DNA from: Streptomyces capitiformicae
GTDB taxonomy: Bacteria; Actinomycetota; Actinomycetes; Streptomycetales; Streptomycetaceae
Direction: 5' to 3'
Length of the DNA: 64,000 bases
Assembly (NCBI RefSeq): GCF_002214185.1
Contig: NZ_CP022161.1
Location: 8,935,486-8,999,485, forward strand
Shown here: positions 31,719-59,398 of the stretch, piece after piece
How the letters are laid out: every line of letters begins with the position of its first letter
How positions within the stretch are numbered: position 1 is the stretch's first letter
The notes under the pieces: generated by a model
Database searches by the model: none
The model's input: the letters and a program-made list of their open reading frames with translations, nothing else
What the model was told of the DNA's origin: nothing
Position numbers and translations under genes: made by a program

Positions 31719-31772
31719 ATGACCCTGCCCCTGCCCCTGCCGCTCGCCCCGTCCCCTGTGGCCCTGCCATGA
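31719..31772 (+). CDS. 17-residue leader ORF coupled to the MFS gene
   Basis: MTLPLPLPLAPSPVALP, preceded by GGAG at good spacing and ending in ATGA that overlaps the start of the transporter. The MFS gene has no good ribosome site of its own, so translation of this leader probably delivers ribosomes to it. A low-complexity product makes a function for the peptide unlikely. Confidence 0.4.
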   Translation: MTLPLPLPLAPSPVALP

Positions 31773-41396: not shown

Positions 41397-42863
41397 ATGG
41401 TGACCGACCGGTACGGCAACCGCCTGTACGAGTGCACCGCCGAAGCGGCGGGGCATCTGGACCGGGCTGTGGAGGGGCTGCTGTTCTTCCGCCCGGACTT
41501 CCCCGACGCGGTCCAGGACGCCGTCGCGGCGTGCCCGGCCTCGCCCCTGGCCCAGTCGTTCGCGGCCTACCTGGGCGTGCTCGGCACCGAGTCGCGCGAC
41601 GCCGTCGAGGCCCGGCTCCGGTTCGCCGAGTTCAGCGCCGGGCTGGACCACTCGGCGCTGCCGCGCCGCGAGCGGATGCACATGGCGGCGGCGCGGGCCT
41701 GGCTCGGGGGAGACATGGGGCGGGCCGCGCAGGTTCTGGAGGACCTCGTAGTGGAGAGCCCTCGTGATCCGCTGGCCCTGGCGGTGGGCCATCAGCTCGA
41801 CTTCTTCACCGGTGACGCGACCCGGCTGCGGGACAGGATCGGCGGGGCACTGCCCGCCTGGGAGACGGACGATCCCCATCGTGGCCCGCTGATGGGCATG
41901 TACGCCTTCGGCCTGGAGGAGTCGGGCCACTACGACCGCGCCCGGGAAGTGGCCCTCGCCGCCGTCGAGCGAAACCCCCGCGACGTCTGGGCCATCCACG
42001 CCGTGGTGCACGTCCACGAGATGCAGGGGCGGTTCGCCGAGGGCATCGACTATCTCGACGCCCGCCTCGACGACTGGGCGAGCGGCACCCTCCTGACCGT
42101 CCACAACTGGTGGCACTACGCCCTCTACGCGCTGGAGGCGGGCGACACCGACACGGCCACCCGGATCTACGACGCCGTACTGCACCACAAGGACTCGACC
42201 GGGTTCGTCATGGAACTCCTCGACGCCGCGGCCCTGTTGTGGCGGTTCCTCCTCGCCGACCTCGACCAGGACACCCGCTGGCAGACCCTGGCCGACGCGT
42301 GGGCCGAGCGCGCGGACCCGCCGTACTACGCCTTCAACGACGTACACGCCGTCATGGCCTTCGCCGGGGCGGGACGGCTGAAGGCGGCCGACGAGTTCAT
42401 CGCCGAGCGGCGGCGCCGGCTCACCCTGGACGGCACCCGCCCCACCAGCAACCACGTGATGACCGCCGAGATCGGCCTGCCCGTCTGCGAGGCACTGGTC
42501 GCCCACGTCCGCGGGGAGTACCCGGCGGTGATCGACCTGCTCTGGCCGATCCGCCGCCGCGTGCACACCTTCGGTGGCAGCCACGCCCAGCGGGACGCGA
42601 TCCAGCGGACCCTCCTGGAAGCGACCCTGCGCGCGAACCGACACGACCTGGCCCGCCGGCTGCTGGGTGAACGCACGGGCCTGAGCCCCCACAGCCCCTA
42701 CAACTGGCTCGGCCAGGCCCGACTCGCCGACTCCCTGGGCGAGGCGGCCCGAGCGGCCGTAGCCCGCGACACGGCAGCCGAACTGGCCGCTCCCGCCGCC
42801 CGCATGCTGAGCCGGAAACTGCACCGGCCGTACCTGACGACGCCGGGTGCGGCCGACCACTAG
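41397..42863 (+). CDS. TTC38-like tetratricopeptide repeat protein
   Basis: 488 residues, all-helical, with repeats through residues 20-450. The family hallmarks AVVHVHEMQGRFAEGIDYLD and VHNWWHYALYALEAGD (about residues 198-250) match the bacterial tetratricopeptide-38 family. Biochemical role unknown. Start at GTG or ATG of ATGGTGACC near 41397 with GAGATGAGCTGCC upstream. The stop codon TAG at 42861-42863 is formed by the first bases of the adjacent MITE-like element, so the original C-terminus may have been different. Confidence 0.75.
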   Translation: MVTDRYGNRLYECTAEAAGHLDRAVEGLLFFRPDFPDAVQDAVAACPASPLAQSFAAYLGVLGTESRDAVEARLRFAEFSAGLDHSALPRRERMHMAAARAWLGGDMGRAAQVLEDLVVESPRDPLALAVGHQLDFFTGDATRLRDRIGGALPAWETDDPHRGPLMGMYAFGLEESGHYDRAREVALAAVERNPRDVWAIHAVVHVHEMQGRFAEGIDYLDARLDDWASGTLLTVHNWWHYALYALEAGDTDTATRIYDAVLHHKDSTGFVMELLDAAALLWRFLLADLDQDTRWQTLADAWAERADPPYYAFNDVHAVMAFAGAGRLKAADEFIAERRRRLTLDGTRPTSNHVMTAEIGLPVCEALVAHVRGEYPAVIDLLWPIRRRVHTFGGSHAQRDAIQRTLLEATLRANRHDLARRLLGERTGLSPHSPYNWLGQARLADSLGEAARAAVARDTAAELAAPAARMLSRKLHRPYLTTPGAADH

Positions 42864-43097
42864 GGCCTGTCGTCACCTTCCCGTCTGCCCCGCGACGCCA
42901 TGCACGCTCCCCCACGCTCGACTCCGCTCGAGCGGGAGGGGGCCCCACCGCCGCACCGGGCACACACCCGAGTACATCCAGTACGAGGGTGTATGCCCGG
43001 CACGCCGAGAGCACGCGCCTACGCGGACATCAGCCGCTGCCGCGGCGGGCGCGGGGCCGCCCTCCGGGCGACGACGGGAAGGTGACGACAGGCCCTA
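42861..43097. mobile_element. MITE-like element flanked by TA, 23-bp inverted repeats
   Basis: It is 237 bp long including the TA on both sides. The ends are inverted repeats of at least 23 bp starting GGGCCTGTCGTCACCTTCCC (42863) and mirrored at 43073-43095. No transposase. The interior (for example GTACATCCAGTAC and GGCACGCCGAGAGCACGC) matches the element at 12581 in opposite orientation, although their termini differ. The left TA plus G supplies the stop codon of the TPR gene. Confidence 0.8.
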
Positions 43098-43157: not shown

Positions 43158-44648
43158 TCAGGGGCCGGTGGCCACCCAGTCGAGCCCGTCGTCCGAGGGC
43201 ACCAGCCCACCGGGGCGCAACGGTGTCTCCTCCTCCAACGGCCCGCCGAACACGCCCCGTTCCTGCAGCACCGAGCCCTCCCGGAACGTCTGACGGAAGG
43301 TGGGCGCCTCGTAGAGCGGGTTGCGCAGTCCGTCGGAGTCCGGGAGCCGGCCCACCACCTCGTCGAGATCCGTGGCGGCGGCGGTCAGCCGCGTGCCCAC
43401 CTGCGTGGGACCGGCGAGGGCCGCGTCCCGCGAGGCCAGCCCGCCCACCAGCTCCACGAAGGCCTCCAGCTCCGTCGTCCGGACGTTGGTGACCTTGCGC
43501 GCCTTCCAGAAGTACGACCGCTCGTCCTGGTGCATGTCGTAGAAGGACATCAGGAACTCGTAGAACAGGCCGTACTCGTGCCGGTAGCGGGCCTCGAACT
43601 CCTCGAAGCAGCGGGCCTCGTCCACCGTCCCGGCCAGAGAGGTGTTGATGGACCGGGCCGCGAGCAGCGCGCCGTAACAGGCCAGATGGACCCCGGAGGA
43701 CAGCACCGGGTCGACGAAGCAGGCCGCGTCACCGGCCAGGACCATGCCGGGCCGCCACAGCTGTGACTTCCAGTACGACCAGTCCTTGCGGATCCGGACC
43801 TGGTCGTAGGGCGCCTCGGTGGCCTGGGGCGCCCCGTCGACGAGGTCCCGTATCTCGGGGCACGCGTCGATGAGCCGTCGCCAGGCCGCCGCCGGATCCC
43901 CCTGGACCGCGGCCGTGTTCTCCCGGCTCACCACCGCCCCGACGCTCGTGAGGTCGTCCCGGAGCGGGATGTACCAGATCCATCCCTCGTCGAAGGCCGC
44001 GCAGAAGATGTTGCCGTCGTTCGGCTTCGGCAGCCGCCCGCCCCCGGCGACGTACCCGAAGACCGCGATGTTCCGGAAGAACTCGGAGTACGTCCGCTTC
44101 CCGCCCACGTGCGTATGGATCCGGCTGGTGTTGCCGGAGGCGTCCACGACATACCGGGCCCGGGCCTCGCGCGGCGCGCCGTCCGGGTCGGTCCAGCGCA
44201 CGCCCCTGACCCGTTCCTCGTCGGCGATCACGTCCGAGACACGGCAGCCCTCCCGTACGACCACGCCGATCCGGCGCGCGTTGTCGAGGAGGATCGCGTC
44301 GAACCGGGCCCGCTCCACCTGGTACGCGAACGAGGTGGGGTCGGACAGCCGGGGCGACAGCGCGAAGGAGAACTGCCACGGCTCCCGGTTCCGCCCCCAG
44401 CGGAAGGTGCCGCCCCGCTTGAGTTTGAAGCCCGCCCGGGCCACCTCCTCCTCGACGCCCAGGATGCGGCACACCCCGTGCACGGTGGACGGCAGCAGCG
44501 ACTCGCCGATCTGGTACCGGGGGAACGTCTGCTGGTCAAGCAGCAGTACGCGGTGGCCCCGCAGGGCGACGGCCGAGGCGACGGTCGACCCGGCTGGGCC
44601 GCCGCCCACGACGATCGCGTCGAACTCCTCTACGGCTGTGGCAGTCAC
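43158..44648 (-). CDS. Flavin-dependent halogenase
   Basis: 496 residues. FAD-binding GGGPAG (residues 15-20), [13 protein letters not shown] (43-55), the conserved lysine in [13 protein letters not shown] (K75/K77 region), and the halogenase signature WxWxIP as WIWYIP (223-228). Length and sequence fit the CmlS/CndH subgroup, whose members are thought to act on large or carrier-bound substrates. It needs FADH2 from a separate reductase, which is not in this window. Its ATG overlaps the PKS stop (4 bases), so the two proteins are translationally coupled and probably modify one product. Confidence 0.9.
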
Positions 44649-47600
44649 TGGTCTCCTTGTGCGCTGAGAGGTGAGGGGGAGTCCTGGTGGCCGAGGGAGG
44701 CGAGCCAGGTACGGATCGCGGTCACGGTGGCCGGGGCGTGTTCACCCTGGAGCGAGAAATGGTCGCCCGGGACATCGACGGCGTCGTGGGGGAGCGGCCA
44801 GGACGTCCGCCACGCGTCGCCGTCCGCGCCCGCCGCCATCTCCGGCGTCGGCCGCGTGGCCCGGACCAGCAGGGTCGGCGTGGCGACGGGTTCCGGATCC
44901 CAGTCGAGGAACATGCGCGTGTACGCGCCCATCGCCGCGACGGCGTGGTCGTTGTCACCGGTCGACGGGCCCTCGGCCAAGTGCGGGATCAGGGTGGCCG
45001 GCAGGGCCAGCAGCCAGTCCGTGCCGAAGTTGCCCTGATGGACGAGATAGGTGTCGAGCAGCACTTGGCCGACGGGAGCGGAGCCCAGGGCCTCCAACCG
45101 CCGGGTCAGGACGTGCGCGACGGCGCCGCCCGTGGACGAGCCGACGACCACGAAGGGCCGGTCGCCCACATGCCGCAGCACCGTCTCGGCGTGCGTGCGG
45201 GCCAGTGTCTCCCGGTCCACCGCTACGGCCGTTCCCTCACCGATACCGGGATGCCGCAACTCCAGGACCTCCCGGTCGCCCCGGAAACAGTCGTGGAAAC
45301 GAGCGGCCGTTCCACCGGGGAACGCGGGATGGAAGCCGTTGACGATGACCACTACCGGAGCGTCGCCGGCCCCCTCGGCCCGCCGCAGCGGCGGCAGCGC
45401 GTGCCGCCTACTGTCGGCCGCGCCGAAGGTCGGCACGGCCCAGGAGGCGGAGACCAGCATGTGCATCGCGGCGACCACATGACCGGCCTCGCAGAGCCGC
45501 CGGTAGAGCGAGGACAGGGTCCGCGGTGTTGACTCGTCGATCGATCCGAGGGACTCGGGGGCGTGCTCCGCCGTGGAGTCCTCGGCTGTCGTCGACTGCG
45601 GCAGGTCGAGCAGACCGAGTACGTGCCGGGCCAGACCGTCCGCCGTGTTGTGCTCGAAGATCACGGCGGCGGAGAGCCTGAGCCGTAGCGCGAGGCTCAG
45701 CCGGTTGCGGATCTGGACCGCCATCAGGGAGTCGAAGCCCAACTCGTCGAAGGTTTTGCCGACCGGCAGCGCGTCGGCACTCGGATACCCGAGCACCGCG
45801 GCCACGTCCTCGCGCATCAGCTCCGCGAGCGCGCCTTCGCGTCGCGCGGCGGGCAGCTCCGCCAGCACCTGCCGCCACGCTCCCGGCTCCAGGAGCTCTG
45901 GCTCACCGGGCTGCTGGCCCGGACCGCTGCCGACGGCGGTCTGTCCGGCCTCGGCGACCGGGCGGCGGCGTCGGACCGGCCCACGCATCAGCGGTGGCAG
46001 GGGCCGGGGGCTCTGTGCGGCCCGCAGGGCGGCACGGTCCACCAGGATCGGTGCCGCCACCGGCACACCCTCGCGCATCGCCGCGTCGAAGAGTGCCATG
46101 CCCTGCTCCGTGGAGAGGGCCCGCAGCAGGTCACCGCCGGTCTCGGGGCTCCGCGGCTGCTCACGGAGGTGGGGGGCCGCCATGCCCCCGCCGTGTTCCC
46201 AGGGGCCCCATGCCAGGGAGATCGCGGGCAGGCCCTGTGCGGTGCGGTGGTGGGCGAGGGCGTCCAGGAACGAGTTCGCCGCCGCGTAGTTGGCTTGGCC
46301 CGCCCGGCCCAGCAGACCCGACGCCGAGGAGAAGAGGACGAACGCCGACAGCTCCAGATCCCTGGTCAGCTCATGCAGATGCCAGGCCGTGTCCACCTTC
46401 GGCCGCAGCACCGCCGCCATCCGCTCGGGGGTCAGCGCCGCCAGTACGCCGTCGTCGAGCACCCCGGCCGCGTGCACCACGGCGCCCGGCTCGGGCCGAC
46501 AGCCCTTGACCACCTCGGCCAGCGCCGCCCGGTCCGCCGTGTCGCACGCGACGATCCCGACTTCGGCGCCCAACTCCTCCAGCGTGATGCGGAGTTCCTC
46601 GGCGCCGGGCGCCTCTGGTCCACGGCGTGAGGTGAGCAGCAGATGGCGTACCCCGTACGAGGTGACGAGGTGCCGGGCCAGTTCCGCGCCCAACGCGCCG
46701 GTACCGCCGGTGATCAGCACGGTGCGGAGCGGGTCGAAGGTGCCGGAGGCGGGGCGGCGGCCATCGGTCGCCGCCAGCCGAGGCGCAGCCAACTGGCCTG
46801 TGGCTACACGGAGTTGGGGATCACCGGTGGTCAGGGCCACCGGGAGCAGCCGCAGGGACTCGGGCTGTCCGTCCACGTCGACCAGCACGACGCGTCCGGG
46901 CAGCTCCGCCTGGGCCGCTCGCACCAGCCCCCACACCGCGGCACCGGCCAGGTCCGGCTCCGGCGCGGTGGCGTCCCGCGTCACCACGACCAGGCGGGAA
47001 CCCGGCGTCCGTGGATCGTCCTGCCAGTCCTGGAGGGTTCGCAGTACCCGGTCGGTCAGCAGGCGTACGGCGGCGGGCGGATCGTCATGCGTGGCCGGCC
47101 CGACGGCGGTGACGACGACGGTGTCCGGATCGCGGGTGACCGTCTCGGTGAGCGCGGACAGCGACTCGCGGAGGTTCAGCTCGTCCGGGCCAACCAGCTC
47201 CCAGCGCCGCCCGCTCTCCGCGTGGTGCTCGTGCCCGAGCGACGGCTCGACGGCCTCCCAGTCGAGGCGCAACAGGCCCCGTCGCACCACATCGTGCGCG
47301 GACTCGGCTGCTTCGGCGGGGAGTTCACGGGTGGTCAGCGAGTCCACCCGGGCCACCGGGCGGCCCGCCGGGTCGGCGAGTGTCAGCGCGACCCTGTCCG
47401 GTCCGGCCGGGGCCACCCGTACCCGTACCTCCGACGCGCCTGACGCGTACAGGCGCATGCCGTTCCAGGAGAACGGCACCCGGATCGAGTCGGCCTCGGG
47501 CCCCGCCGCCCCGGCGCCCATCAGCAGCGGGGCGTGTGCCGCCGCGTCCAGCAGCGCCGGATGGATCCCGAACCGGGCGGCGCCCGCCGCCTCGGGCAGC

Positions 47601-50600
47601 CGTACCTCCGCGAACAGTTCGTCGCCGCGCCGCCATGCTGCCCGTACGCCCCGGAAGGCCGGGCCGTAGGCGAGACCGTCCTCCGCGAGGGTGTCGTAGG
47701 CGTCGGTGAGGTCGACTTCGGTCGCGCCCTGGGGCGGCCACACCGTGAGGCCCGTATCCGGCTCAGGTGTCGAGGCCCGTGCCGCCCCGTCGACCAGCTG
47801 CCCCGTCGCGTGCCGGGTCCACGTGGGTTCCGTGTCGTCGTCGACGGGCGTCTCGGGCCGGGAGTGGATGTCGACCGGTCGTCGGCCGGAGCCGTCCGCC
47901 GGGCCCACCACGACCCGGAGATGCACGCCTGTGGCGGCGGGCAGGGCGAGCGGCGCGAGGATCACGAGTTCGTCGAGCGTGCCGCAGCCGGTCTCGTCGC
48001 CCGCACGGACGGCCAGTTCCACGAACACCGTCGCGGGGACGAGGACCGACCCGCCGATCACATGGTCGGTGAGCCATGGATGGGTCGTGGGGGAGAGACG
48101 GCCCGAGAACACGGTCCGGTCGGTGTCCGGCACCGTGAAGGCCGGCCCGAGCAGCGGATGACTGTGCGGGTCCGCCGTGGGGCCGCCCAGGTGGCGCTGC
48201 CCGTCGAGCCAGTACCGCTGCCGTTGGAAGGCGTACGTCGGCAGGTCCACGCGTCGCGTACCGGTGTCCGCGCACACCACGGGCCAGTCGACGCGCACCC
48301 CGCGCACATGGAGCCGCGCCACGGCGGACAGCAGGGTCTCCGACTCGCGCTCGCCCTCACGGGAGGCGGCGGCGAAGAGAGGGCCGGGCCCGTCGTCCGG
48401 GTCGCCGGTCACACACTCCTCGGCCGCGCCGATGAGCGCCGGACGGGGGCCGATCTCCAGGAACGCCGACACCCCACTACCGCCCAGCCACCGCACGGCG
48501 TCGGCGAACCGCACCGGCACCCGGACGTGCCGCACCCAGTACTCCGGGGAGCACAACTCCTCGGCATCGGCGGGACGGCCTGTGACCGTGGAGATCACCG
48601 GGATGCGGGGCGGCCGGAAGGTGAGCCCCTCGGCGACCCGGCGGAAGTCGTCGAGCATCGGCTCCATCAGCGGTGAGTGGAAGGCGTGGCCGACTGCCAG
48701 CCGTACCGTCCTCCGGCCACGCGCCTCGAAGCCGGCGGCGACGGCGAGTACCGCGTCCCGTACGCCGGAGATCACCACCGAGCGCGGCCCGTTGACCGAG
48801 GCGATCGCCACCTGGGGCCCCGCTTCCGTGACCGCCGCGCGAACCTCCTCCTCCATCGCGTGCAGCGCCACCATCGCGCCGCCCTCGGGCAGGGCGTGCA
48901 TCAGCCGGCCACGGGCCGCGACGAGCGTCGCCGCGTCGGCGAGGCCCAGAACGCCGGCGACGTGGGCCGCCGTGAGTTCGCCCACGGAGTGCCCGGCCAG
49001 GAAGTCGGCGCGTACTCCCCAGGACTCCAGCAGCCGGAACAGCGCCACCTCGAAGGCGAACAGTCCCGCCTGGGTGAAGTCCGTACGGTCGAGCAGGGCG
49101 GCCTCCGGCGAACCCGGCTCGGCGGAGAGCGCCACGTCCAGCGGGCGTTCGAGCCGGCCGTCCAGTGCCCGGCAGACGTCGTCGTACGCCGTGGCGAAGG
49201 CGGGGAAGGCCGCCCGCAACCCGGCTCCCATACGGGCGCGTTGGGCTCCCTGGCCGGTGAAGAGGAAGGCCGTACGGAGCCCCGGATCCGCGACCGCCCG
49301 CTCGATGCCGACGCTGCCGGTGCCCCCGGCGAGCGCCTCCAGTGACGCGAGCATCCGCGCCCGGTCGCCGGTCGGCACCATCGCCCGGTGGGTCAGCGCC
49401 GACCGCGACACGGCCAGGGAGGAACCGACGTCGGCCGACGACAGTTCGGGCCGCGCCACAAGATGCTCCGCCAGCCGCCTGGCCTGAGCACGCAAGGCAT
49501 CTTCATCGGCGCCGGAGAGCAGCCAGGGCATCGACAGGGCCGTGGCTTGCGGCGCGGTGCCGGAAGGCGGTGGTGGCGCGGTGCGGGAAGGCGGTGGTGG
49601 CGCGGTGCGGGAAGGCGGTGGTGGCGCGGTGCGGGAAGGCGGTGGTGGCGCGGTGCCGGAAGGCGGTGGTGGCGCGGTGCGGGAAGGCGGTGGTGGCGCG
49701 GTGCGGGAAGGCGGTGGTGGCGCGGTGCCGGAAGGCGGCTGCGGCGCCTCCTCCAGGATCACGTGCGCGTTGGTCCCGCCGATGCCGAAGGCCGACACCC
49801 CGGCCCGGCGCGGACGGGCGGCCGTCGAGGGCCATGGCCGGGCGGCGGTGAGCAGTTCCACCCGGCCGGAGGCCCAGTCGACGTGGGGTGAGGGGGTCTC
49901 GGAGTGCAGGGTCCGGGGCAGTTCCCCGTGCCGCATGGCCTGCACCATCTTGATGACCCCGGCGACCCCGGCGGCCGCCTGGGTGTGCCCGAGGTTGGAC
50001 TTGACCGACCCCAGCCACAGCGGGGGTCGCTCGGGGGTCCGCCCCTGCCCGTACGTGGCGAGCAGGGCAGCCGCCTCGATGGGGTCGCCCAGCGTGGTGC
50101 CCGTGCCGTGCGCCTCCACCGCGTCCACCTCGTCGGGGTGGAGTCCGGCCTCGGTCAACGCCCAGGTGATCAGGCGCTGTTGGGCCTGGCCGTTGGGGGC
50201 CGTGAGCCCGTTGGACGCGCCGTCGGAGTTGACGGCGGAGCCACGCAGCACGGCCAGCACCGGGTGACCGCCTCGCCGGGCGTCGGAGAGCCGCTCCAGC
50301 AGCACCAGTCCGGCGCCCTCCGCCCAGGCGGTGCCGTCCGCCGAGGCCGCGAACGACTTGCAGCGGCCGTCGGGCGACAGCCCCCGCAGCCGGCTGAACG
50401 CGGTGAACGGCTTGGGCGTCGCCATCACGGTGACCCCGCCCGCCAGGGCCAGCGCGCACTCGCCGGAGCGCAGCGCCCGCGCGGCCCAGTGCAGCGCCAC
50501 CAGCGAGGACGAGCAGGCCGTGTCGAGCGTGATCGAGGGCCCGCGCAGCCCGTACACGTAGGAGATCCGGCCGGAGGCCAGACTGCCCGCCGAGCCCAGC

Positions 50601-53002
50601 CCGAGATGCGCCTCCAGGTCGCTGCGGTCGAGGCGGGCGGAGTAGTCGCCGTGCATCACCCCGACGAACACCCCGGTGTCGCTCTCCCGCAATGCGGCCG
50701 GGTCGATGCCCGCCCGCTCCCAGACCTCCCACGACGTCTCCAGCAGCAGCCGCTGCTGCGGATCCATGGCCAGTGCCTCGCGCGGCGAGATCCCGAACAG
50801 CCCCGCGTCGAACTCCGCGGCCCGGTGCAGGAATCCACCGCGGTTCGTGTACGACGTGCCGGGCCGGTCCGGGTCGGGGTCGTGGAGGGCGGACAGGTCC
50901 CAGCCCCGGTCGGTGGGGAAGCCCGAGGTGGCGTCCCGGCCTTCCGACACCAGCCGCCACAGGTCCTCGGGGGAGTGGACGTCACCGGGGTAGCGGCAGC
51001 CCATGGCGACGATCACCACCGGATCGTCGTCGTCCGTGGACCCCGCCGCCCCGGCCCGCAGCCCGGCGTCGGGCATCGTGCCGAAGAGGGTGCTGTGGAC
51101 GTACCGGGCGAGCTCCGCCGGGGTGGGACGGTCGTACACCAGCGTCGAGGGCAGCCGCAGTCCGGTCGCCGCGCCGAGCCGCTCGATCAGCGCGACGGCA
51201 CCGGCGGACGTCAGTCCGAGATCGGTGAACGGGCTCTCGGCGTCCAGCCGTTCGTACGGGACGCCGCCGCACACCTCGGCCGTCTCGGCGAGCACCGCCT
51301 CACGCAGCGCCCGCTCCCGTCCCTCCGGCGGCAGGGACAGCAGCCGCCCCCGCAGGGCACCCTCGTCGGCAGTGGTCGTGGTGGTGGGCCCGGCGACGGG
51401 CCGGGACGGCTCCGGCAGGACCACCGCGTGCCGGGCGATCTTGCCGGACGCCGTACGAGGGACGGCGGCGATCTCATGGATCTCGACCGGCAGCTTGTAC
51501 TCGGCCAGCCGGGTGCGGCACGCGGCCAGTACACGCTGCGGATCGACCCCCTCCGCTCCGGGGACGACGAAGGCCACCGGGACCTCGCCGAGCACCTCGT
51601 GCGCCCGGCCCACGACGACCGCGTCCGTCACACCGGGGCTGTGCAGCAGGGCCTGTTCGACCTCGGTGGGGTGGATGTTCTCGCCGCCGCGGTTGATCAG
51701 TTCACTGACCCGGCCGGTGAGGATCAGATGGCCGTGTGCGACGCGGCGGCCGAGGTCGCCGGTGCGGTACCAGCCGTCCCTCAGCGCCGCCTCGGTTGCC
51801 TCGGGCCGGTTGTGGTAGCCGGTCATGAGGCCCGGCCCCCGCACCCAGATCTCGCCCTCGGCGCCGTCCCCGACATCGTTGCCGGAACGCGGATCGACGA
51901 CCCGTACGTCGACACCCGGGACCGGGGGCCCGCAGGAACCGTCGACCCTGGGGCCGTCCGGCCGGTTCACCGCGATCATGCCGCAGGTCTCGGTGCTGCC
52001 GTACGCGTCGAGCAGGGGCGCGCCCAGCGCCTCCTCCACCGCCCGCCGCAACTCCGGGGAACTCGGCGCACCGGCGACGAGACAGGTCCGCATGCTCGGT
52101 GGCGGCGAGGCGACCGAGGAGTCCTCGGCCGCCGCGGCCACCAGCCGGTGGTAGGTCGCGGGCACCCCGGCGAGCACGGTGAAAGGACCGCCGAGGGACT
52201 CGTGCGGGGCGCGCAGCTCCCGCCACAGGCCGTCCGGCGGGAGGAGTTCGCCGGTGATCCGGGCGCTCGCGCCGACCGCGGTGACACCCAGGATCACGAG
52301 GGAGTGCCCGAAACTGTGGAACAGCGGCAGCGGCCACAGCAGCCGGTCCTCCGCCGAGAGCCCGAAGATCGGGGCGTAGCAGGCGGCCACCGACCACAGG
52401 GCGGCGCGCTGCGTGGACAGCACGCCCTTGGGGCGGTGCGTGGTGCCGGACGTGTAGAGCATCCAGGCCGGCTCGTCGAGGCCGAGGTCGTCCCGGGGCG
52501 CCGGAGCCATAGGGTCGGCGGGTGCCCCGTCGCCCTCCGCCACGGCCCGGAAGAGGACCGTGCCCTCGGGGGCGTCCACGGGAACCGGCCCCGTACCGGT
52601 CAGCAGTACACGCGGACGGGCCTCTCCGGGAGCGGCGAGGCGGTGCAGTCGCGCGAGCTGCGCGGAGTCGGTGACGACGACCGAGGCACCGCTGTCCTGA
52701 AGGAAGTGGGCGAGCTCGGCATCGGAGGAGCGGGGATTGAGGGGCACCCCGATCGCTCCGGCACGGAGGACCGCGAGGACGCTCTCCACCATCTCGACGC
52801 GATTGCCGAGGCAGATCGCGACCCGGTCACCACGTGCCAGCCCCGTACGGGCGAGATACGCGGCCAGCAGCCCGGTACGCCGCTCCAACTCGGCATACGT
52901 GACACCGCGCACGTCGTCGGCGAACGCCACCCGCGAGGGCGCTGCCGCGGCGTGCGCCTTCAGCAGCTCCGGCAGCGGCCGTATCAACTCGTCGTGCTCC
53001 AT
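44645..53002 (-). CDS. Single-module type I polyketide synthase with own starter ligase and thioesterase
   Basis: 2785 residues; ATG 53002 follows GGGAGGCGGCGAC. Approximate domain order: acyl-AMP ligase (1-540; [11 protein letters not shown] near 185, RTASGKIAR near 517); ACP (555-635; serine in LGLTSAG near 597); KS (655-1085; Cys in DTACSSS near 829, EAHGTGT, NLGHTQ); a proline-rich tandem linker (1085-1155); AT (1245-1535; GHSVG near 1337, HAFHSP near 1440, the pattern usual for malonyl-CoA); DH (1610-1900; [10 protein letters not shown] near 1647, LLDAAAH near 1817); KR (2090-2270; GGTGALG, LDD B-type motif near 2182, catalytic YAAAN); ACP (2390-2465; GFDSLMA); TE (2535-2770; GSSTG near 2622, GDHFSL). 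No ER. All key residues are present. One condensation would give an alpha,beta-unsaturated acid; iterative use is possible. Confidence 0.95.
49549..49745 (-). repeat. 24-bp tandem repeat encoding PPPPS(R/G)TA linker units
   Basis: Eight consecutive copies of a 24-bp unit lie in frame inside the PKS gene, encoding A-P-P-P-P-S-R-T or A-P-P-P-P-S-G-T between the KS and the KS-AT linker. The copies are almost identical in DNA (R/G alternation comes from one C/G change), which indicates recent slippage or unequal crossing-over and a likely variable copy number. Confidence 0.9.
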
Positions 53003-53188
53003 GTCGCCGCCTCCCCGGCCCACGAGGGGCCCGCTCCCAACACCGTCGATCTCCTTACGGAGCAACGGAGTTGAGGGTAGGGGGTTCCTGATGGATCTTC
53101 GCGGCGTCGCGACGACCGGCGTTTCGGACCGGCGGGCGGCACGCGGAGGCGCCGCCCGCTCACCTCACCCGTCAACCGGCCCGGCGGC
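53003..53188. promoter_or_regulatory. Upstream region of the PKS-halogenase operon
   Basis: A 186-bp gap between the Nudix-like gene and the PKS, all transcribed leftward. It should contain the operon promoter unless the Nudix gene reads through. The GGGAGG ribosome site lies at about 53010-53016. No specific operator was recognised. Confidence 0.3.
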
Positions 53189-53725
53189 CTACGACAGGCA
53201 GCCCACATGTGCCAGGGCCTGCTTCAGCAGGACTCCCTGGCCGCCCGGCATCTCGCTCTGGACCGACTCCGACGCGGCCTCCTGCGGGCTGAACCACACC
53301 AGGTCGAGCGCGTCCTGCCGGGGACGGCAGTCGCCGGACACCGGGACGATGTACGCGAGGGACACCGCGTGCTGGCGCGGGTCGTGGAACGGCGTGATGC
53401 CCAGCGTCGGGAAGTACTCGGCGACGGTGAAGGGCTGGAGCGCGGCCGGGACCCGGGGCAGCGCCACCGGGCCGAGGTCCTTCTCCAGATGACGCAGCAG
53501 GGCGTCGCGCACCCGCTCGTGGTGCATCACGCGGCCGGAGACCAGCGTGCGGCTGACCGTTCCGTCCGGGCCGATGCGCAGCAGCAGGCCGATGCTGGTG
53601 ACTTCGCCGCTGTCGTCGACGCGCACGGGCACGGCCTCGACGTACAGGATCGGCATCCGGGCGCGCGCCGATTCGAGTTCGTCGGAACTCAGCCAGCCGG
53701 GCGTGGTTTCGGTCAAGTCAGACAT
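53189..53725 (-). CDS. Nudix-hydrolase-like protein (DUF4916 type)
   Basis: 178 residues. It resembles the actinobacterial DUF4916/Nudix-like group (GWLSSDELESARARMPILYV, then VVMHHERVRDALLRHLEKDL region and YFPTLGITPFHDPRQHAVSL). The canonical Nudix box GX5EX7REUXEEXGU is not obvious, so catalytic activity is uncertain. It is followed by the PKS in the same direction and might be cotranscribed; a metabolic link is not shown. Confidence 0.6.
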   Translation of the reverse strand: MSDLTETTPGWLSSDELESARARMPILYVEAVPVRVDDSGEVTSIGLLLRIGPDGTVSRTLVSGRVMHHERVRDALLRHLEKDLGPVALPRVPAALQPFTVAEYFPTLGITPFHDPRQHAVSLAYIVPVSGDCRPRQDALDLVWFSPQEAASESVQSEMPGGQGVLLKQALAHVGCLS

Positions 53726-53816: not shown

Positions 53817-54488
53817 TCAGTCGTGGGCGGCCCACATCCCCCGCACATGACCCAGATGCCGGGTCATCACCGCCCGTACGGCGTCCTCGTCGCGGTCGAG
53901 GAGTGCGTCCAGGAGTTCCAGGTGCTCCTGGGCGGAGGACAGCAGCCGGCCGGCCTCGACGAGGGCGGTGAGACCGTAGAGCCGTGAGCGTTTACGCAGG
54001 TCGCCGACCACCTCGACGAGGTGCGCGTTGCCCGCGAGGGCGAGCAGACCGAGGTGGAAGCGGGTGTCGGCCTCGACGTACGCGATGAGGTCCCCGGCGG
54101 CCGCGGCGGCGACGATCTCCCGGGCGGCGGGCCGCAGCGCCTCCAGGGAGACCGGGTCGGCGGTCCCGGCCAGGCCGACGGTGGTCGGGATCTCGATGAG
54201 CGAGCGGAGATGGGTGTACTCGTCGAGCTGCTTCTCGGTGACCTCGGTGACCCGGAACCCCTTGTTGGGCACGGTGTCGACCAGTCCCTCCTTGGCCAGA
54301 TCCAGCATGGCCTCGCGCACCGGTGTCGCCGAGACGCCGAAGCGGGCGGCGAGCGCCGGCGCGGAGTACACCTCGCCCGGCCGCAGCTCACCGGCGATCA
54401 GCGCGGCCCGCAGCGCGTCGGCGACCCGCTCGCGGTAGCTGCGCTTCTTGCCGCCCAGCGTGGGCAGGGCCAGGGCGGACGAGGCCAT
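53817..54488 (-). CDS. GntR-family (FCD) regulator of the hydroxyproline cluster
   Basis: 223 residues. The N-terminal winged helix (about 15-80) includes LRPGEVYSAPALAARFGVSA and TPVREAMLDLAKEGLV, typical of GntR. The FCD domain (about 88-215) has the metal-ligand positions in EADTRFHLGLL and the late histidines in MTRHLGHVRG. It is the last gene of the hydroxyproline cluster and transcribed with it. It probably represses the cluster and responds to hydroxyproline or an intermediate. Candidate sites are at 56463 and 59399. Confidence 0.85.
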   Translation of the reverse strand: MASSALALPTLGGKKRSYRERVADALRAALIAGELRPGEVYSAPALAARFGVSATPVREAMLDLAKEGLVDTVPNKGFRVTEVTEKQLDEYTHLRSLIEIPTTVGLAGTADPVSLEALRPAAREIVAAAAAGDLIAYVEADTRFHLGLLALAGNAHLVEVVGDLRKRSRLYGLTALVEAGRLLSSAQEHLELLDALLDRDEDAVRAVMTRHLGHVRGMWAAHD

Positions 54489-54520
54489 GGGACTCTCCAG
54501 ACAACGAACCGAAAGACGGA

Positions 54521-55522
54521 CTAGAGGACGAAGCCGGCCGGGAACGGGTCGGACGGGTCGAGCAGGTACTGGGCCGTGCCGGTGATCCAGGCGCGGCCGG
54601 TGAAGCTGGGCAGCACGGCCGGTACGCCGGCCACCTCGGTCTCGCCGAGCAGCCGTCCCGTGAACCGGGTGCCGATGAAGGACTCGTTCACGAACTCGGT
54701 GTGCAGCGGCAGTTCGCCCCGCGCGTGCAGTTGTGCCATACGTGCGCTGGTGCCCGTACCGCAGGGTGAGCGGTCGAACCAGCCGGGGTGGATGGCCATC
54801 GCGTGCCGGGAGTGCCGGGCGGTGGCGCCGGGGGCATGGAGGTGGACGTGGTGGACGCCGTGGATCGACGGGTCCTCGGGGTGGACGGGCTCCCCCTCGG
54901 CGTTGATCGCGTCCATCAGGGCCAGGCCCGCCTCGAGGATGTCGTCCTTGCGGGAGCGGTCGAAGGGCAGCCCGAACTGCTCCAGCGGCAGGATGGCGTA
55001 GAAGTTGCCGCCGTACGCGAGGTCATATGTCACCGTCCGCCCGTCGGCGAGTGCGATTTTGCGGTCGAGGCCGACCGCGAAGGACGGCACGTTCTGCAGG
55101 GTGACCGCCTTCGCCGCGCCGTCCTCCACCGCCACCTCGGCCACGACCAGCCCCGCCGGGGTGTCGAGGCGGATCGTGGTCACCGGCTCGACGACCTCGA
55201 CCATGCCGGTCTCGACGAGCACGGTCGCGACCCCGATCGTGCCGTGGCCGCACATCGGCAGATAGCCGGAAACCTCGATGTAGACGACGCCGTAGTTGCA
55301 GTCGGGGCGGGTGGGCGGCTGCAGGATCGCGCCGCTCATCGCCGCGTGCCCGCGCGGCTCGTTCATCAGCAACTGCTTGACGTCGTCGCGGTGTTCACGG
55401 AACCACAGCCGACGCTCGTTCATGGTCGCGCCGGGGATCGTGCCGATTCCGCCGGTGATCACCCGGGTGGGCATGCCCTCGGTGTGCGAGTCGACGGCGT
55501 GCAGGACGAGTTTGCTGCGCAT
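54521..55522 (-). CDS. 4-hydroxyproline 2-epimerase (proline racemase family)
   Basis: 333 residues, the usual length. Both catalytic cysteines are seen: MCGHGTIG (about residue 88) and DRSPCGTGTSA (about 250), which separates epimerases from dehydratases with a Thr or Ser. It interconverts trans-4-hydroxy-L-proline and cis-4-hydroxy-D-proline. I chose ATG 55522; the longer open frame is antisense-like. It lies 25 bp downstream of the DapA-family gene and 32 bp before the regulator gene. Confidence 0.9.
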   Translation of the reverse strand: MRSKLVLHAVDSHTEGMPTRVITGGIGTIPGATMNERRLWFREHRDDVKQLLMNEPRGHAAMSGAILQPPTRPDCNYGVVYIEVSGYLPMCGHGTIGVATVLVETGMVEVVEPVTTIRLDTPAGLVVAEVAVEDGAAKAVTLQNVPSFAVGLDRKIALADGRTVTYDLAYGGNFYAILPLEQFGLPFDRSRKDDILEAGLALMDAINAEGEPVHPEDPSIHGVHHVHLHAPGATARHSRHAMAIHPGWFDRSPCGTGTSARMAQLHARGELPLHTEFVNESFIGTRFTGRLLGETEVAGVPAVLPSFTGRAWITGTAQYLLDPSDPFPAGFVL

Positions 55523-55547
55523 GAGCCGGTCTCCCTTCCCGCCCGAG

Positions 55548-56438
55548 TTACGCGAGCCCCGTCGCGACGGCCTTCTCGGTGGCCGCGCGGATCGCGGCCT
55601 CCTGCTCCGGCAGCAGCTCCACCCGGGGTGGACGACAGCGTCCGCCATGGCGGCCCACGACATCCATGGACAACTTGATGGCCTGCACGAACTCGACCTT
55701 GGAGTCCCAGCGCAGCAGCGGGTGCAGCTGCGCGTAGAGGTGTTTGGCGGTCGAGAGGTCGCCGTCCACCGCCGCGTGGTACAGCTCCACGGTCGCGGCC
55801 GGCAGCGCGTTCGGGTACCCGGCGACCCAGCCCTTGGCGCCCGCCAGCGCGAGCTCCAGCAGGACGTCGTCCGCCCCGATCAACAGGTCCAGTTCCGGGG
55901 CGAGTTCGGCGAGCTGGTAGGCGCGGCGGACGTCCCCGGAGAACTCCTTCACACCCTGGATGTACCCCTCGCCGTACAGCTTGGCCAGCAGCTCGGGGAC
56001 GAGGTCGACCTTGGTGTCGATGGGGTTGTTGTACGCCACGATCGGCACACCCGCCTTCGCGACCTCCGCGTAGTGGGCGAGCACGGAGCGTTCGTCGGCG
56101 CGGTACGCGTTCGGCGGCAGCAGCATCACCGACGCGCAGCCCGCGTCCCGCGCCTGCTCGGCCCAGCGCCGGGACTCGGCGGACCCGTACGCGGCGACCC
56201 CCGGCATCACCCGCGAGCCGCCGATCGCCGCGACCGCCGTCTCGACGACCTTGGCCCGTTCCTCGGGCGTCAGTACCTGGTACTCGCCGAGCGAACCGTT
56301 CGGTACGACACCGTCGCAGCCGTTCTCGACCAGCCAGGCGCAGTGCTCGGCGTACCGGTCGTAGTCGACGGACAGGTCGTCCCGCAGGGGGAGGGCGGTG
56401 GCGACGAGAACGCCGTGCCACGGGCGGTGCTCGGTCAT
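55548..56438 (-). CDS. DapA-family lyase, probable pyrroline-4-hydroxy-2-carboxylate deaminase
   Basis: 296 residues (299 from ATG 56447). TIM-barrel class I lyase of the dihydrodipicolinate synthase family: GSLGEYQVLTPEERAKVVE (the usual G-(S/T)-x-GE segment, about 47-65), the tyrosine in IVAYNNP (about 134) and the Schiff-base lysine in IQGVKEFSGD (about 162). In hydroxyproline clusters this enzyme deaminates the dehydrogenase product to alpha-ketoglutarate semialdehyde. The assignment rests on context plus family. A shared 17-bp motif lies just upstream. Confidence 0.85.
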   Translation of the reverse strand: MTEHRPWHGVLVATALPLRDDLSVDYDRYAEHCAWLVENGCDGVVPNGSLGEYQVLTPEERAKVVETAVAAIGGSRVMPGVAAYGSAESRRWAEQARDAGCASVMLLPPNAYRADERSVLAHYAEVAKAGVPIVAYNNPIDTKVDLVPELLAKLYGEGYIQGVKEFSGDVRRAYQLAELAPELDLLIGADDVLLELALAGAKGWVAGYPNALPAATVELYHAAVDGDLSTAKHLYAQLHPLLRWDSKVEFVQAIKLSMDVVGRHGGRCRPPRVELLPEQEAAIRAATEKAVATGLA

Positions 56439-56462
56439 GAGGGGCATCCCATCTGAGTAGGG

Positions 56463-56479
56463 TGTGACATATTACTGGC
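56463..56479 (+). promoter_or_regulatory. Candidate regulator site upstream of the DapA-family gene
   Basis: TGTGACATATTACTGGC, matching the site at 59399-59415 in 16 of 17 positions. It lies 16-25 bp upstream of the candidate start codons of the lyase gene (minus strand), in the 44-bp gap after the dehydrogenase gene. On the minus strand TAATAT could also serve as a -10 box. Confidence 0.5.
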
Positions 56480-56491
56480 CTCTGTCTGGTC

Positions 56492-57898
56492 TTACCGGGC
56501 CTCTGCCTGGTCGCCGTTCTGATCCGCCAGCACCCCCAGCGGCACCGGCCGTGCGAACGGCCTCCGGCCCACGCTCTCCGGGCACCCGGCGATCCCCGCG
56601 ACGGCGGGCCCGCACACGCGCCCCTGGCACCAGCCCATTCCGGCCCGGGTGAGCAGCTTCACGGTCCGTACGTCCCCGGCGCCCAGCTCGCCGACAGCCT
56701 CGCGGACCGCCCCGGCGGTGACCTCCTCGCACCGGCAGACGACGGTGGCATCCGTGACCTGCTCGGTCCAGTGCGCCGGCGGCGCGTACACGGAGTCGAG
56801 CGTGGCGAAGAACCCCCGTAGCGCCGCACGGGACTTGGCGGCCGCCGCCCACTCCCGCGGGTCGGGATCCCGGCCCCGCAGCCGGGCCGCCGCCGACCGC
56901 CCGGCGATGTGCCCCTCGGCGAGCGCGAGGGCCGCGCCGCCGATGCCGGTGGTCTCACCCGCCGCCCAGACGCCCGGCACGTCGGTGCGCTGCTCCTCGT
57001 CGACGTGGACGTTCGGCCCGATGATCCGGCAGCCGAGCGCCTCGGCGAGGTCGGTGTGCGGCAGCATGCCGTGTCCGACCGCGAGCGTGTCGCAGGGGGT
57101 GCGCCGCTCGGTGCCGGGCCGGACGCGCCCCTCGGCGTCGAGCGCGGCGACGGTCACGGCCGTCAGCCGGTCCGTGCCGTGCGCCTCGACCACGGTGTGG
57201 CGTACCAGCGTCCGCACCCGGCGGCGCAGCAACTCCCTCGCGTACCCGGCGCCTTCGGCCAGCTTGTCCGCCCGGCCCGCCAGCGCCCCGGCCCGTCGTA
57301 CGAGCGCCTTCGGATCCGCCGACTCCACCAGCGCGGCCACCGTGACACCGGCCCCCGCGAGCCCCGTCGCCACCGGCAGCAGCAGCGGACCGGTCCCGGC
57401 GACGACCGCCGTACGGCCCGACACCACGAGCCCGCCCTTGAGCATGGCCTGCGCGCCCCCAGCGGTGACGACGCCGGGCAGGGTCCAGCCGGGGAAGGGG
57501 AGTACCTTCTCGTAGCCGCCCGTCGCGAGGAGGACGGCGTCCGCGTGAACCACGGCCGGCTTCTCCTGCTCGGGGCCGAGCAGCGCGTGCACGGTGAAGC
57601 CCTCGGGTTCCCGCTCGACGCACCAGACGTGGTGGTCCGCCCGGTGGCCGACGCGTCCGGCGGCGATGTACTGATCCAGGCCCTCGCGCAGCCGCCGCCA
57701 GGTCCGCCACTGGTGGTGCAGGGCCTCCGGCCGCCGCGCGCCGAGCCCGGCCGAGGGCTGCCGGTAGAACTGGCCACCGGGAGCCTCCGCGGAGTCGACC
57801 AGCGTGACCCGTACGCCGCGCCCGGCCGCCGCCAGCGCCGCTGCGAGCCCGGCGGGGCCCGCGCCGATCACCGCGAGACGGGGTTCCTCAGCGTTCAT
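56492..57898 (-). CDS. FAD/NAD(P)-dependent oxidoreductase subunit with [2Fe-2S]-binding C-terminus (D-hydroxyproline dehydrogenase-type)
   Basis: 468 residues. Dinucleotide motif AVIGAGPAGLAAALAAAGRG (residues 9-28), a second Rossmann motif (VVAGTGPLLLPVATGLAGAG, about 165) and the FAD-end motif VPGVWAAGETTGIGG. The C-terminal BFD-like domain carries cysteines VCRCEE and GWCQGRVCGP. This matches the alpha subunit of hydrogen-cyanide-synthase-like and D-hydroxyproline dehydrogenase complexes. I chose ATG 57898; it overlaps the ferredoxin-like gene by 11 bp, as expected for a complex. Confidence 0.85.
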   Translation of the reverse strand: MNAEEPRLAVIGAGPAGLAAALAAAGRGVRVTLVDSAEAPGGQFYRQPSAGLGARRPEALHHQWRTWRRLREGLDQYIAAGRVGHRADHHVWCVEREPEGFTVHALLGPEQEKPAVVHADAVLLATGGYEKVLPFPGWTLPGVVTAGGAQAMLKGGLVVSGRTAVVAGTGPLLLPVATGLAGAGVTVAALVESADPKALVRRAGALAGRADKLAEGAGYARELLRRRVRTLVRHTVVEAHGTDRLTAVTVAALDAEGRVRPGTERRTPCDTLAVGHGMLPHTDLAEALGCRIIGPNVHVDEEQRTDVPGVWAAGETTGIGGAALALAEGHIAGRSAAARLRGRDPDPREWAAAAKSRAALRGFFATLDSVYAPPAHWTEQVTDATVVCRCEEVTAGAVREAVGELGAGDVRTVKLLTRAGMGWCQGRVCGPAVAGIAGCPESVGRRPFARPVPLGVLADQNGDQAEAR

Positions 57899-58187
57899 GG
57901 CCCGTCCCCTCCTGGGTGCGGATCGCGTCTCCCGGCCGGACCGGGACCAGACAAGCCCGTTGACCCGGGCGGTCGTTGACCGTGACGAGGCAGTCGAAGC
58001 AGACACCGATGCCGCAGAAGACCCCGCGCGGCCGACCCTCGCCCCGGGTGGTGCGCCAGGACGTGACCCCGGCGGCCCAGAGCGCGGCGGCGACCGTCTG
58101 ACCGGGCAGCGCGTCGATCTCACGACCGTCCAACGTGACGGTGAAGGCGGGCCCCGGTTCCGCTTCCGCGAGTTCCAGCGGGTTCAT
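57888..58187 (-). CDS. [2Fe-2S] ferredoxin-like subunit of the dehydrogenase
   Basis: 99 residues. The cluster motif is CGIGVCFDCLVTVND, then a fourth cysteine in RACLVPV. This small subunit (SoxD/HcnA-like) passes electrons between the two flavoprotein subunits. It overlaps the DadA-like gene by 4 bp (ATGA) and the alpha-subunit gene by 11 bp. Confidence 0.9.
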   Translation of the reverse strand: MNPLELAEAEPGPAFTVTLDGREIDALPGQTVAAALWAAGVTSWRTTRGEGRPRGVFCGIGVCFDCLVTVNDRPGQRACLVPVRPGDAIRTQEGTGHER

Positions 58188-59398
58188 GCCGCGTCCCCCT
58201 CGTCCCCCTCGTCACCTTCGTCACCTTCGTCACCTTCGTAGTCCTCTTCGTGCTCCTCGAACCGGTCCGGCCGGAACGGCGTCAGGTCGAGATCGGGCGT
58301 CTTCCCGCCGAGTACCTGGGCGATCAGCCGCCCGGTGCCGGTGGCGAGCCCGATCCCGGCGCCCTCGTGGCCGCAGGCGTGGAACAGCCCCGGTACCCGG
58401 GGATCGGGCCCGATCGCGGGCAGATGATCGGGCATGTACGGCCGGAAGCCGAGGTACGTCCGCATCGCCCGCACCCGTTCCAGGAAGGGGAACAGCCGGG
58501 TGGCGCCCGCCGCCAGCGCCCTTACGACGGGCAGCGAGAACGACCGGTCGAAGCCGACGCGCTCCCGGCTCGCCCCGATCAGCACCGGCCCGGCGGCCGT
58601 GCCCTCGACGACCGGGGAGGTCTGGAGTGCCGCCGAGTCGCTGGCCACGTCGGCCACGTAGTCGGCGGCGTACACCTTGTGCCGCACCAGGGGCGGGAGC
58701 GGCTCGGTGACGAGGACGAAGCCGCGCCGGGGGAGGACGGGCAGACCGACTCCGGCGAGCGCGGCCAGTTCGCCGCCCCAGGTGCCGGCGGCGTTCACGA
58801 CGGCCGGTGCGTGGATGTCGCCCCGGTCGGTTCTCACGCCGCGTACGGTGCCGTCGGCCGCGCGCAGCACCTCGGTCACGGTGCGGCCGGTGAGCAGACG
58901 GGCGCCGGAGGCCCGTACGAGATGGGCGGCGGCCAGGGTGGGCATGACCTGGGCGTCCTGCGGGTAGTGCACGCCGCCCGCGAGGCCGGGTGCCAAGTGG
59001 GGCTCCAGGTCGGTGAGTTGATGGGCGGCGACGCTTTCCGCCGTGACCCCGGCGGAACGCTGCCCGGCCGCGAAGTCCTCCAGGGCGCCGAGCCCGTCCG
59101 GGGTGGAGGCGACGACGAGGCCGCCCTTCGCCTCGTACTCGAACGCCGGGCCGAGACCCGGCTCGGCGGCCAGCTCGGCCCACAACCGGTTGGACAGCAG
59201 GGCGAGTTCGAGCTCCGGGCCCGGTTCCTTGTCGGAGACCAGGAGGTTGCCCTCGCCGGCGCCGGTCGTGCCGCCCGCCACCGGGCCGCGGTCCACCACG
59301 GTGACGGCCAGCCCCGCCCGGGCCGCGTACAGGGCGCAGGCCGCGCCCACCATTCCCGCTCCGACAACCACGACGTCGCAGGTCAGTCGCTCGGTCAC
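58184..59398 (-). CDS. DadA-like FAD amino-acid dehydrogenase, first gene of the hydroxyproline operon
   Basis: 404 residues. FAD motif VVVVGAGMVGAACALYAARA (about 9-28) and the end motif GLFHACGHEGAGIGLATGTG. DAO/DadA fold; it should be the catalytic subunit that oxidises cis-4-hydroxy-D-proline. The last 24 residues are an acidic repeat of E-G-D units encoded by a 12-15-bp microsatellite (58196-58243), which is probably variable. The GTG start at 59398 directly abuts the 17-bp motif and has no clear ribosome site, so leaderless translation or a downstream start is possible. Confidence 0.85.
   Translation of the reverse strand: MTERLTCDVVVVGAGMVGAACALYAARAGLAVTVVDRGPVAGGTTGAGEGNLLVSDKEPGPELELALLSNRLWAELAAEPGLGPAFEYEAKGGLVVASTPDGLGALEDFAAGQRSAGVTAESVAAHQLTDLEPHLAPGLAGGVHYPQDAQVMPTLAAAHLVRASGARLLTGRTVTEVLRAADGTVRGVRTDRGDIHAPAVVNAAGTWGGELAALAGVGLPVLPRRGFVLVTEPLPPLVRHKVYAADYVADVASDSAALQTSPVVEGTAAGPVLIGASRERVGFDRSFSLPVVRALAAGATRLFPFLERVRAMRTYLGFRPYMPDHLPAIGPDPRVPGLFHACGHEGAGIGLATGTGRLIAQVLGGKTPDLDLTPFRPDRFEEHEEDYEGDEGDEGDEGDEGDAA

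Follow-up and report, generated by a model that had tools for sequence, protein, structure and literature searches.

Can two overlapping genes suffice for a halogenated polyketide, a kind of product that usually comes from larger clusters? The question is raised by a locus of Streptomyces capitiformicae that we analyzed within a window of 64,000 nucleotides (the whole stretch of DNA studied; contig NZ_CP022161.1, positions 8,935,486 to 8,999,485), part of a 10.99-Mb single-contig genome. The locus consists of a gene for a type I polyketide synthase (PKS) of 8.4 kb and a gene for a flavin-dependent halogenase, which together occupy 9.8 kb (Table 1). An earlier sequence-only reading had given the PKS an acyl-AMP/CoA-ligase-type loading domain (AL), two acyl carrier proteins (ACP), one set of ketosynthase (KS), acyltransferase (AT), dehydratase (DH) and ketoreductase (KR) and a terminal thioesterase (TE), in the order AL-ACP-KS-AT-DH-KR-ACP-TE, and had reported a 4-bp overlap with the halogenase gene. 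The Pfam domains and the coordinates confirmed all of this: both reading frames are unbroken, and the stop codon of the PKS gene (44645-44647) and the GTG start of the halogenase gene at 44648 share four bases. At its longest, the PKS frame begins with a TTG at 53065; the ATG at 53002 is favoured as the start, and the orthologues align from residue 1. Our answer to the question is that the PKS and the halogenase form a real two-gene unit that is inherited jointly, and its description as an autonomous two-gene halogenated-polyketide unit is held with more confidence than the complete scheme of synthesis proposed below.

The unit was delimited by the comparison of its flanks with those of related genomes. 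In two relatives, the DUF4916/NUDIX and TPR protein genes that flank the pair in the window are neighbours, 75 bp apart in genome G248 and 42 bp in genome G108. Because the flanks nearly abut at these empty sites (L154 and L155), the segment of approximately 10.3 kb that is absent there, which holds only the pair and an element resembling a miniature inverted-repeat transposable element (MITE), represents the unit of gain or loss. The pair was thus either gained or lost here, as one unit. The genome G108 carries a PKS of the same family elsewhere in its chromosome, not at the empty site. At the same site as in the window, the pair is also found in G228, in G254 and in a record of Streptomyces sp. 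MA5143a (L039), and all five entries for this site, among them the window and G139, group in a single clade of the PKS tree (support 99).

In order to follow the pair through the genus, we searched samples of 392 or 295 genomes drawn from a larger group, with the 3 to 11 top candidates of each genome scored. An orthologous PKS was found in 26 of the 392 genomes, 13 of them with the halogenase. The ligase domain of this family, named clade A (73% identity or more), was detected in 25 genomes plus one partial case, and the clade A halogenase (79% or more) in 13, all of which also carry the clade A ligase. With one genome taken per species, at least 18 Streptomyces loci hold an orthologous PKS (61-74% identity over the best segment); among the 18 listed, the halogenase lies directly downstream in 11 and not in 7. 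A second group, clade B, has a halogenase 63-66% identical to that of the window in 12 of the 392 genomes. The end of a PKS lies beside the halogenase in all 12, and the complete domain order followed by the halogenase is repeated in each of the five clade B loci read at length. Additionally, more distant stand-alone genes with the same domain order (45% identical) and no adjacent halogenase were observed in S. atratus, Streptomyces sp. sk2.1 and S. iranensis (L041, L043 and L058).

Several features show that the two genes are inherited together. A start codon giving the identical 4-bp overlap is present in 21 of the 22 clade A loci that hold the junction and in one of five clade B loci, start codons being predicted only. 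Beyond the PKS and the halogenase, no gene recurs in more than 3 of 23 loci, in a comparison whose simple gene caller overlooked the halogenase in L032 and in L035; among 24 clade A loci compared separately, the commonest extra neighbour was an ABC transporter (6/24). Across 21 clade A loci, halogenase distances correlate with those of AL (r = 0.77), KS (r = 0.66) and AT (r = 0.73), with 0 of 2000 permutations in each case, and AL and KS, which are parts of one gene, correlate at r = 0.64; the argument is tempered by the fact that plain vertical descent of both genes would also yield such a correlation. In five pairs of loci, the ratio of nonsynonymous to synonymous substitution rates (dN/dS) was 0.16-0.33 for the halogenase, 0.17-0.25 for AL and 0.07-0.23 for KS, and purifying selection thus acts on both genes; pointing the other way, DH and KR evolve faster (0.23-0.52). 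The pair alone is kept between loci and, together with the empty sites, this strongly supports the earlier description of the system as self-contained and unusually compact.

Table 1. Coordinates of the two genes, of their parts and of the associated elements in the 64,000-nucleotide window.
Feature	Position	Strand	Basis and remarks
Type I PKS, 2785 aa, AL-ACP-KS-AT-DH-KR-ACP-TE	44645..53002	-	Pfam domains; full-length orthologues
CndH-type flavin-dependent halogenase, 496 aa	43158..44648	-	Pfam, CndH alignment, motifs; WIWYIP, Lys in an 18-residue motif
4-bp stop/start overlap, GTGA	44645..44648	-	Reading frames
AL, acyl-AMP/CoA-ligase-type loading domain	51413..52960	-	PF00501 + PF13193; motifs YTSGTT, PRTASGK
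ACP1, loading carrier, GLTS	51068..51325	-	PP-binding (two stretches by Pfam in the PKS), alignment
KS with Cys-His-His	49901..51025	-	PF00109/PF02801; TACSSS, EAHGTGT, NLGH
24-bp tandem repeat, 7.8 copies, coding a Pro-rich KS-AT linker	49551..49738		Repeat analysis, protein
AT, GHSVGE / HAFHS, malonyl type	48293..49267	-	Pfam; HAFHS in 36/37 family members
DH, HxxxGxxxxP + DxxxH	47306..48160	-	PS-DH/PKS_DH_N; HxxxGxxxxP in 37/38 clade A loci
KR, LDD (B type), NYAAAN	46196..46723	-	LDD in 35/38 clade A loci by pattern
ACP2, GFDS	45620..45814	-	Pfam PP-binding, motif
Terminal TE, Ser in GSSTG, Asp in LLDTY, His in PGDH	44705..45295	-	PF00975, alignment
Segment (~10.3 kb) absent at empty sites L154 and L155	42836..53168		Flank comparison
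MITE-like element, perfect 23-bp inverted ends	42863..43095		Between the halogenase and TPR genes, outside the biosynthetic unit

As shown in Table 1, the catalytic motifs of the PKS are complete in KS, AT, DH, KR (LDD and Tyr), TE (Ser/Asp/His) and both ACP serines, and the previous claims of a full set of catalytic residues, a malonyl-type AT, a B-type KR and an intact WxWxIP motif held, the motifs being present as HAFHS, LDD and WIWYIP. The PKS has a single extension module, and the unit contains no further module. In the family as a whole (37 members, less those in which the domain concerned was not detected), the motif patterns were missed in 6 cases for EAHGTGT, 8 for NLGH, 5 for DH, 7 for KR LDD, 2 for KR GxGxxG, 8 of 36 for TE GxSxG, and one each for the AL Lys motif, ACP1 (1/33) and HAFHS. 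The inspected misses in KS, KR, DH and AL are close variants (EGHGTGT, NIGH, NFGH, VDD), mostly from clade B or the distant PKSs. The TE nucleophile is Ser in 34 of 38 clade A loci, including the window, and Cys in the remaining four (L037, L038, L040 and L119); all five clade B PKSs (L126-L130) have Cys (GYCAGG), with Gly replaced by Asp/Glu in the DH motif and LDD by VDD/VAD in KR. The near-identical 24-bp repeats lengthen the KS-AT linker, and 178 bp separate the KS match from the AT match here, compared to 13-103 bp in six relatives measured. A second AL-ACP-KS-AT-DH-KR-ACP gene was observed in the same genome (L148, G000:C1:9165000-9184000); its AL is 54-57% identical, and no TE match was found in it.

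The best solved relative of the halogenase is CndH (PDB 3e1t; 538 bits, E 1.8e-160), which aligns with residues 4-493 of 496 and has the same motifs, followed by 8zop (253 bits) and CmlS, the chloramphenicol halogenase (PDB 3i3l; 238 bits), which belongs to the same superfamily and shares the WxWxIP-type and Lys motifs. The protein therefore groups with CndH and CmlS, and not with the non-halogenating monooxygenases that the sequence-only reading had named as a possible outcome. The specific CmlS label (NF033113) was rejected, with a score of 276.3 bits against an NCBIfam cut-off of 900. The motifs WIWYIP, FVDPVLSSG and the Lys motif are present in the window, and WxWxIP, the conserved Lys and Fx.Px.Sx.G were found in all 26 family halogenases. 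In the passages of PMC8407142 used here for the meaning of the variant B flavin-halogenase motifs, and likewise in those of PMC10377541, CndH is described as belonging to variant B and as requiring a substrate bound to a carrier, and the substrates of the other variant B enzymes named there are aromatic. On these motifs and the similarity to CndH, the halogenase is classified as a variant B, CndH-type flavin-dependent enzyme with predicted carrier-bound action. An electron-rich aromatic substrate on a carrier is thereby indicated, and a plain aliphatic polyene would offer no such ring.

A further group of halogenases, clade C (approximately 60-61% identical), was found in another setting: at two annotated loci (L131 and L132) of three read, the halogenase gene lies just after a one-gene dimodular nonribosomal peptide synthetase (NRPS) with two condensation, adenylation (A) and carrier domains and a methyltransferase. 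We regard this as a further minimal unit that uses this type of halogenase. The code motifs of its NRPS, read by eye, are presumably aromatic, and a scripted reading gave nothing usable. Separately, a related AL-PKS was observed (L149, G001:C516; AL 64%); close to it, at the contig edge, lies part of a different halogenase-like sequence (39% over 242 aa).

The domains are compatible with the halogenated unsaturated acid or polyene acid suggested earlier, and the pair probably makes a small halogenated unsaturated acid. For the full route we propose the following. AL would adenylate a free carboxylic acid and load it onto ACP1; a phenolic acid appears most likely, because the halogenase family favours an electron-rich aromatic ring on a carrier. 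The halogenase would then chlorinate (or brominate) the ring of the carrier-bound starter. The KS-AT-DH-KR-ACP2 module would add malonyl units and leave conjugated double bonds, probably in more than one round, since the gene is costly and other monomodular PKSs reportedly behave so. Finally, TE would release a halogenated aryl-(poly)enoic acid, and strains without the halogenase would make its unhalogenated version. Taken as a whole, this scheme is our favoured reading and a tentative one, at slightly less than even odds.

Several observations weigh against the scheme. The solved relatives of AL that score between 325 and 265 bits include feruloyl, malonyl, fatty acyl, succinylbenzoate, oxalate, 4-coumarate and benzoate enzymes and an NRPS A domain; because so many specificities fall within one score range, the phenolic starter is presumptive, and a prediction of the starter from AL was dropped. 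No starter-making genes lie within the cassette, the Ser/Cys switch of the TE nucleophile within clade A is not explained by the scheme, and the halogenase is dispensable, being absent in 13 of the 26 PKS genomes. A table in PMC8407142 places CndH under 'aliphatic substrates', while the text of the same article, in the part used here, suggests a tyrosine analogue. In the open-licence literature, among the matches listed, no product was found for the pair. Moreover, the KS tree (FastTree, 266 KS domains) joins clades A (28 sequences) and B (5) in one clade with support 99 among modular KSs, with the KSs of L041 and L043 next nearest, ahead of modular ones, and it gives no evidence for iteration. 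The KS phylogeny proposed earlier as a check thus yielded one dedicated clade and did not tell iterative from single-round use. When AL was compared for similarity to fatty acyl-AMP ligases, enzymes of the CoA-ligase type and NRPS A domains were the best among the matches listed; its predicted structure has a mean pLDDT of 75.

This placement of KS among single-use modular enzymes, together with the presence of one module only, would agree with a module that acts once, so that an aromatic acid would be loaded, extended by one malonyl unit, reduced and released by TE as a halogenated aryl-acrylic (cinnamate-like) acid. We consider such single use unlikely, because it would be expensive to maintain an 8.4-kb gene by selection for the addition of one C2 unit, which is an argument and not data, and because the other monomodular Streptomyces PKSs attributed to Wang et al. 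(2020) are said to be iterative.

The same KS placement counts against a route in which a fatty or other aliphatic acid would be loaded, extended iteratively and cyclised to an alkylsalicylate-like aromatic ring prior to halogenation. The order KS-AT-DH-KR-ACP is also that of enzymes of the 6-methylsalicylic acid synthase (6-MSAS) type, and AL resembles fatty-acyl ligases as well. However, 6-MSAS-type enzymes by definition have neither a loading ligase nor a TE, and the present PKS, with its AL, ACP1 and TE, could not be assigned to them; its complete DH motif and B-type KR also count against this route, and we regard cyclisation as somewhat less likely than single use.

It is important to consider whether the remaining genes of a longer pathway could be located elsewhere. 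The starter supply must be external to the pair, and the genome holds the second AL-PKS described above. Nevertheless, the unit was gained or lost alone at the empty sites, and no partner gene occurs in more than 6 of 24 loci; the idea of a longer pathway is therefore distinctly improbable. A larger cluster around the pair was likewise rejected, as the neighbours are catabolic or housekeeping genes that differ between loci. The neighbourhood was annotated for 20 open reading frames (ORFs; window 23.8-64 kb), and no PKS gene or transporter directly adjoining the pair was found among them, in agreement with the sequence-only reading; neither this annotation nor the locus comparison revealed neighbours that supply more modules. 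The TPR protein gene (41397-42863) adjoins the pair on one side and the DUF4916/NUDIX gene (53189-53725) on the other. The latter is followed by a hydroxyproline-type catabolic set upstream of the pair (53817-59398), with a GntR regulator, a proline racemase/epimerase and DapA-like, SoxA-like and DAO oxidoreductases; its two flavin oxidoreductases lie 3.5-6.5 kb upstream of the PKS. Of the transporters found, those closest to the pair are encoded about 9 kb from it (an amino-acid permease, 61910-63865) and about 10 kb from it (a gene of the major facilitator superfamily, MFS, 31769-33181), and no sign links either of them to the pair. Next to the MFS gene, the ORF 30204-31532 has AMP-binding_C, carrier and thioesterase domains but lacks a match to the main AMP-binding domain in that frame, and is possibly a truncated or frame-broken NRPS-like gene. 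The MITE-like element is located at the 3' end of the TPR gene, and its end sequence occurs 30 times in the genome at up to two mismatches (control 0).

The halogenase is often missing beside the PKS. It accompanies 27 of the 50 PKSs placed in a tree, whose well-supported branches require nine or more changes of its presence. The tree left out L045 (frame broken), L097 (partial), L047, L099, L125, L148 and L153, as well as L134, L143, L145 and L146, taken as the same records as L050, L100, L042 and L033; L147 was set by hand to 'halogenase present', the halogenase of that genome being on another contig, and L149 was scored as lacking it despite the different halogenase-like piece at the contig edge. 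At the expected place, a degraded halogenase is found in G108 (L135), with a full-length gene in its sister L118, and in G009 (L137), with a full-length gene in its sister L122, which proves the loss of the halogenase in these two genomes. Because these degraded pieces remain in place, we read the changes as mostly losses. Relocation of the halogenase was rejected for the PKS-only genomes: 9 of 11 searched had no match at E 1e-60, and in the other two, G394 and G401, the best matches were 59 and 58% identical. The 11 comprise seven clade A genomes and four with the distant PKSs L041, L043, L058 and L047, and the pair was detected as expected in a twelfth, pair-bearing genome. Many strains thus retain the PKS but no halogenase, and halogenation seems to be optional. 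That the halogenase acts on something else or decays beside a functional PKS would agree with these changes and with the two remnants, and is very improbable for the window, where the halogenase is intact, under purifying selection, joined to the PKS gene by the overlap and co-inherited with it.

With the two-gene unit as the preferred reading, its components can be compared to known systems. Monomodular iterative type I PKSs of Streptomyces with one reducing module were reportedly described by Wang et al. (PNAS, 2020); in contrast to them, the present PKS has its own loading ligase-ACP and a coupled halogenase, and that set may already include a member of this PKS family. CndH belongs to the myxobacterial chondrochloren pathway, which is of PKS/NRPS nature, whereas the partner of the halogenase studied here is one PKS gene. 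A one-module reducing iterative PKS that makes polyenes when expressed together with one partner protein is also known from Rhodococcus erythropolis (RerA/RerB; PMC11563203). It differs, in the part of that article used here, by a 46-kb cluster of 39 genes, a KS like those of enediyne iterative PKSs, tandem ACPs, and a phosphopantetheinyl transferase and TE on the partner, and no loading ligase or halogenase is named there. PKS8 of Fusarium graminearum, as presented in the portion of PMC6225250 consulted, is also a stand-alone PKS gene, and is fungal with other products (gibepyrones). The same architecture was found in many genomes; among the open-licence matches, neither a cluster of identical architecture with a known product nor a recognised description of this PKS-halogenase pair was found. 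The kinds of PKS and halogenase are both known; the portable pairing, its empty sites and the repeated halogenase loss are new as far as that literature can tell.

On a wider scale, the pair could stand for a widespread, unrecognised class of minimal 'pocket' units, in which one AL-loaded monomodular PKS gene, at many unrelated chromosomal sites, comes with or without an overlapping CndH-type halogenase and with a Ser/Cys release switch, clade A leading to type I PKS-derived halogenated aryl polyenes. We put this forward as a speculative and rather doubtful possibility. With Cys in place of Ser as the TE nucleophile, the product could be released in another form, a strained lactone being one example. 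Since two genes of 9.8 kb appear sufficient, the whole pair would be easy to express, and the matching of a halogenase to a one-module PKS could be tested cleanly with it. Moreover, the natural strains that carry the pair, the PKS alone or remnants of the halogenase provide a ready comparison of the purpose that the halogen serves.

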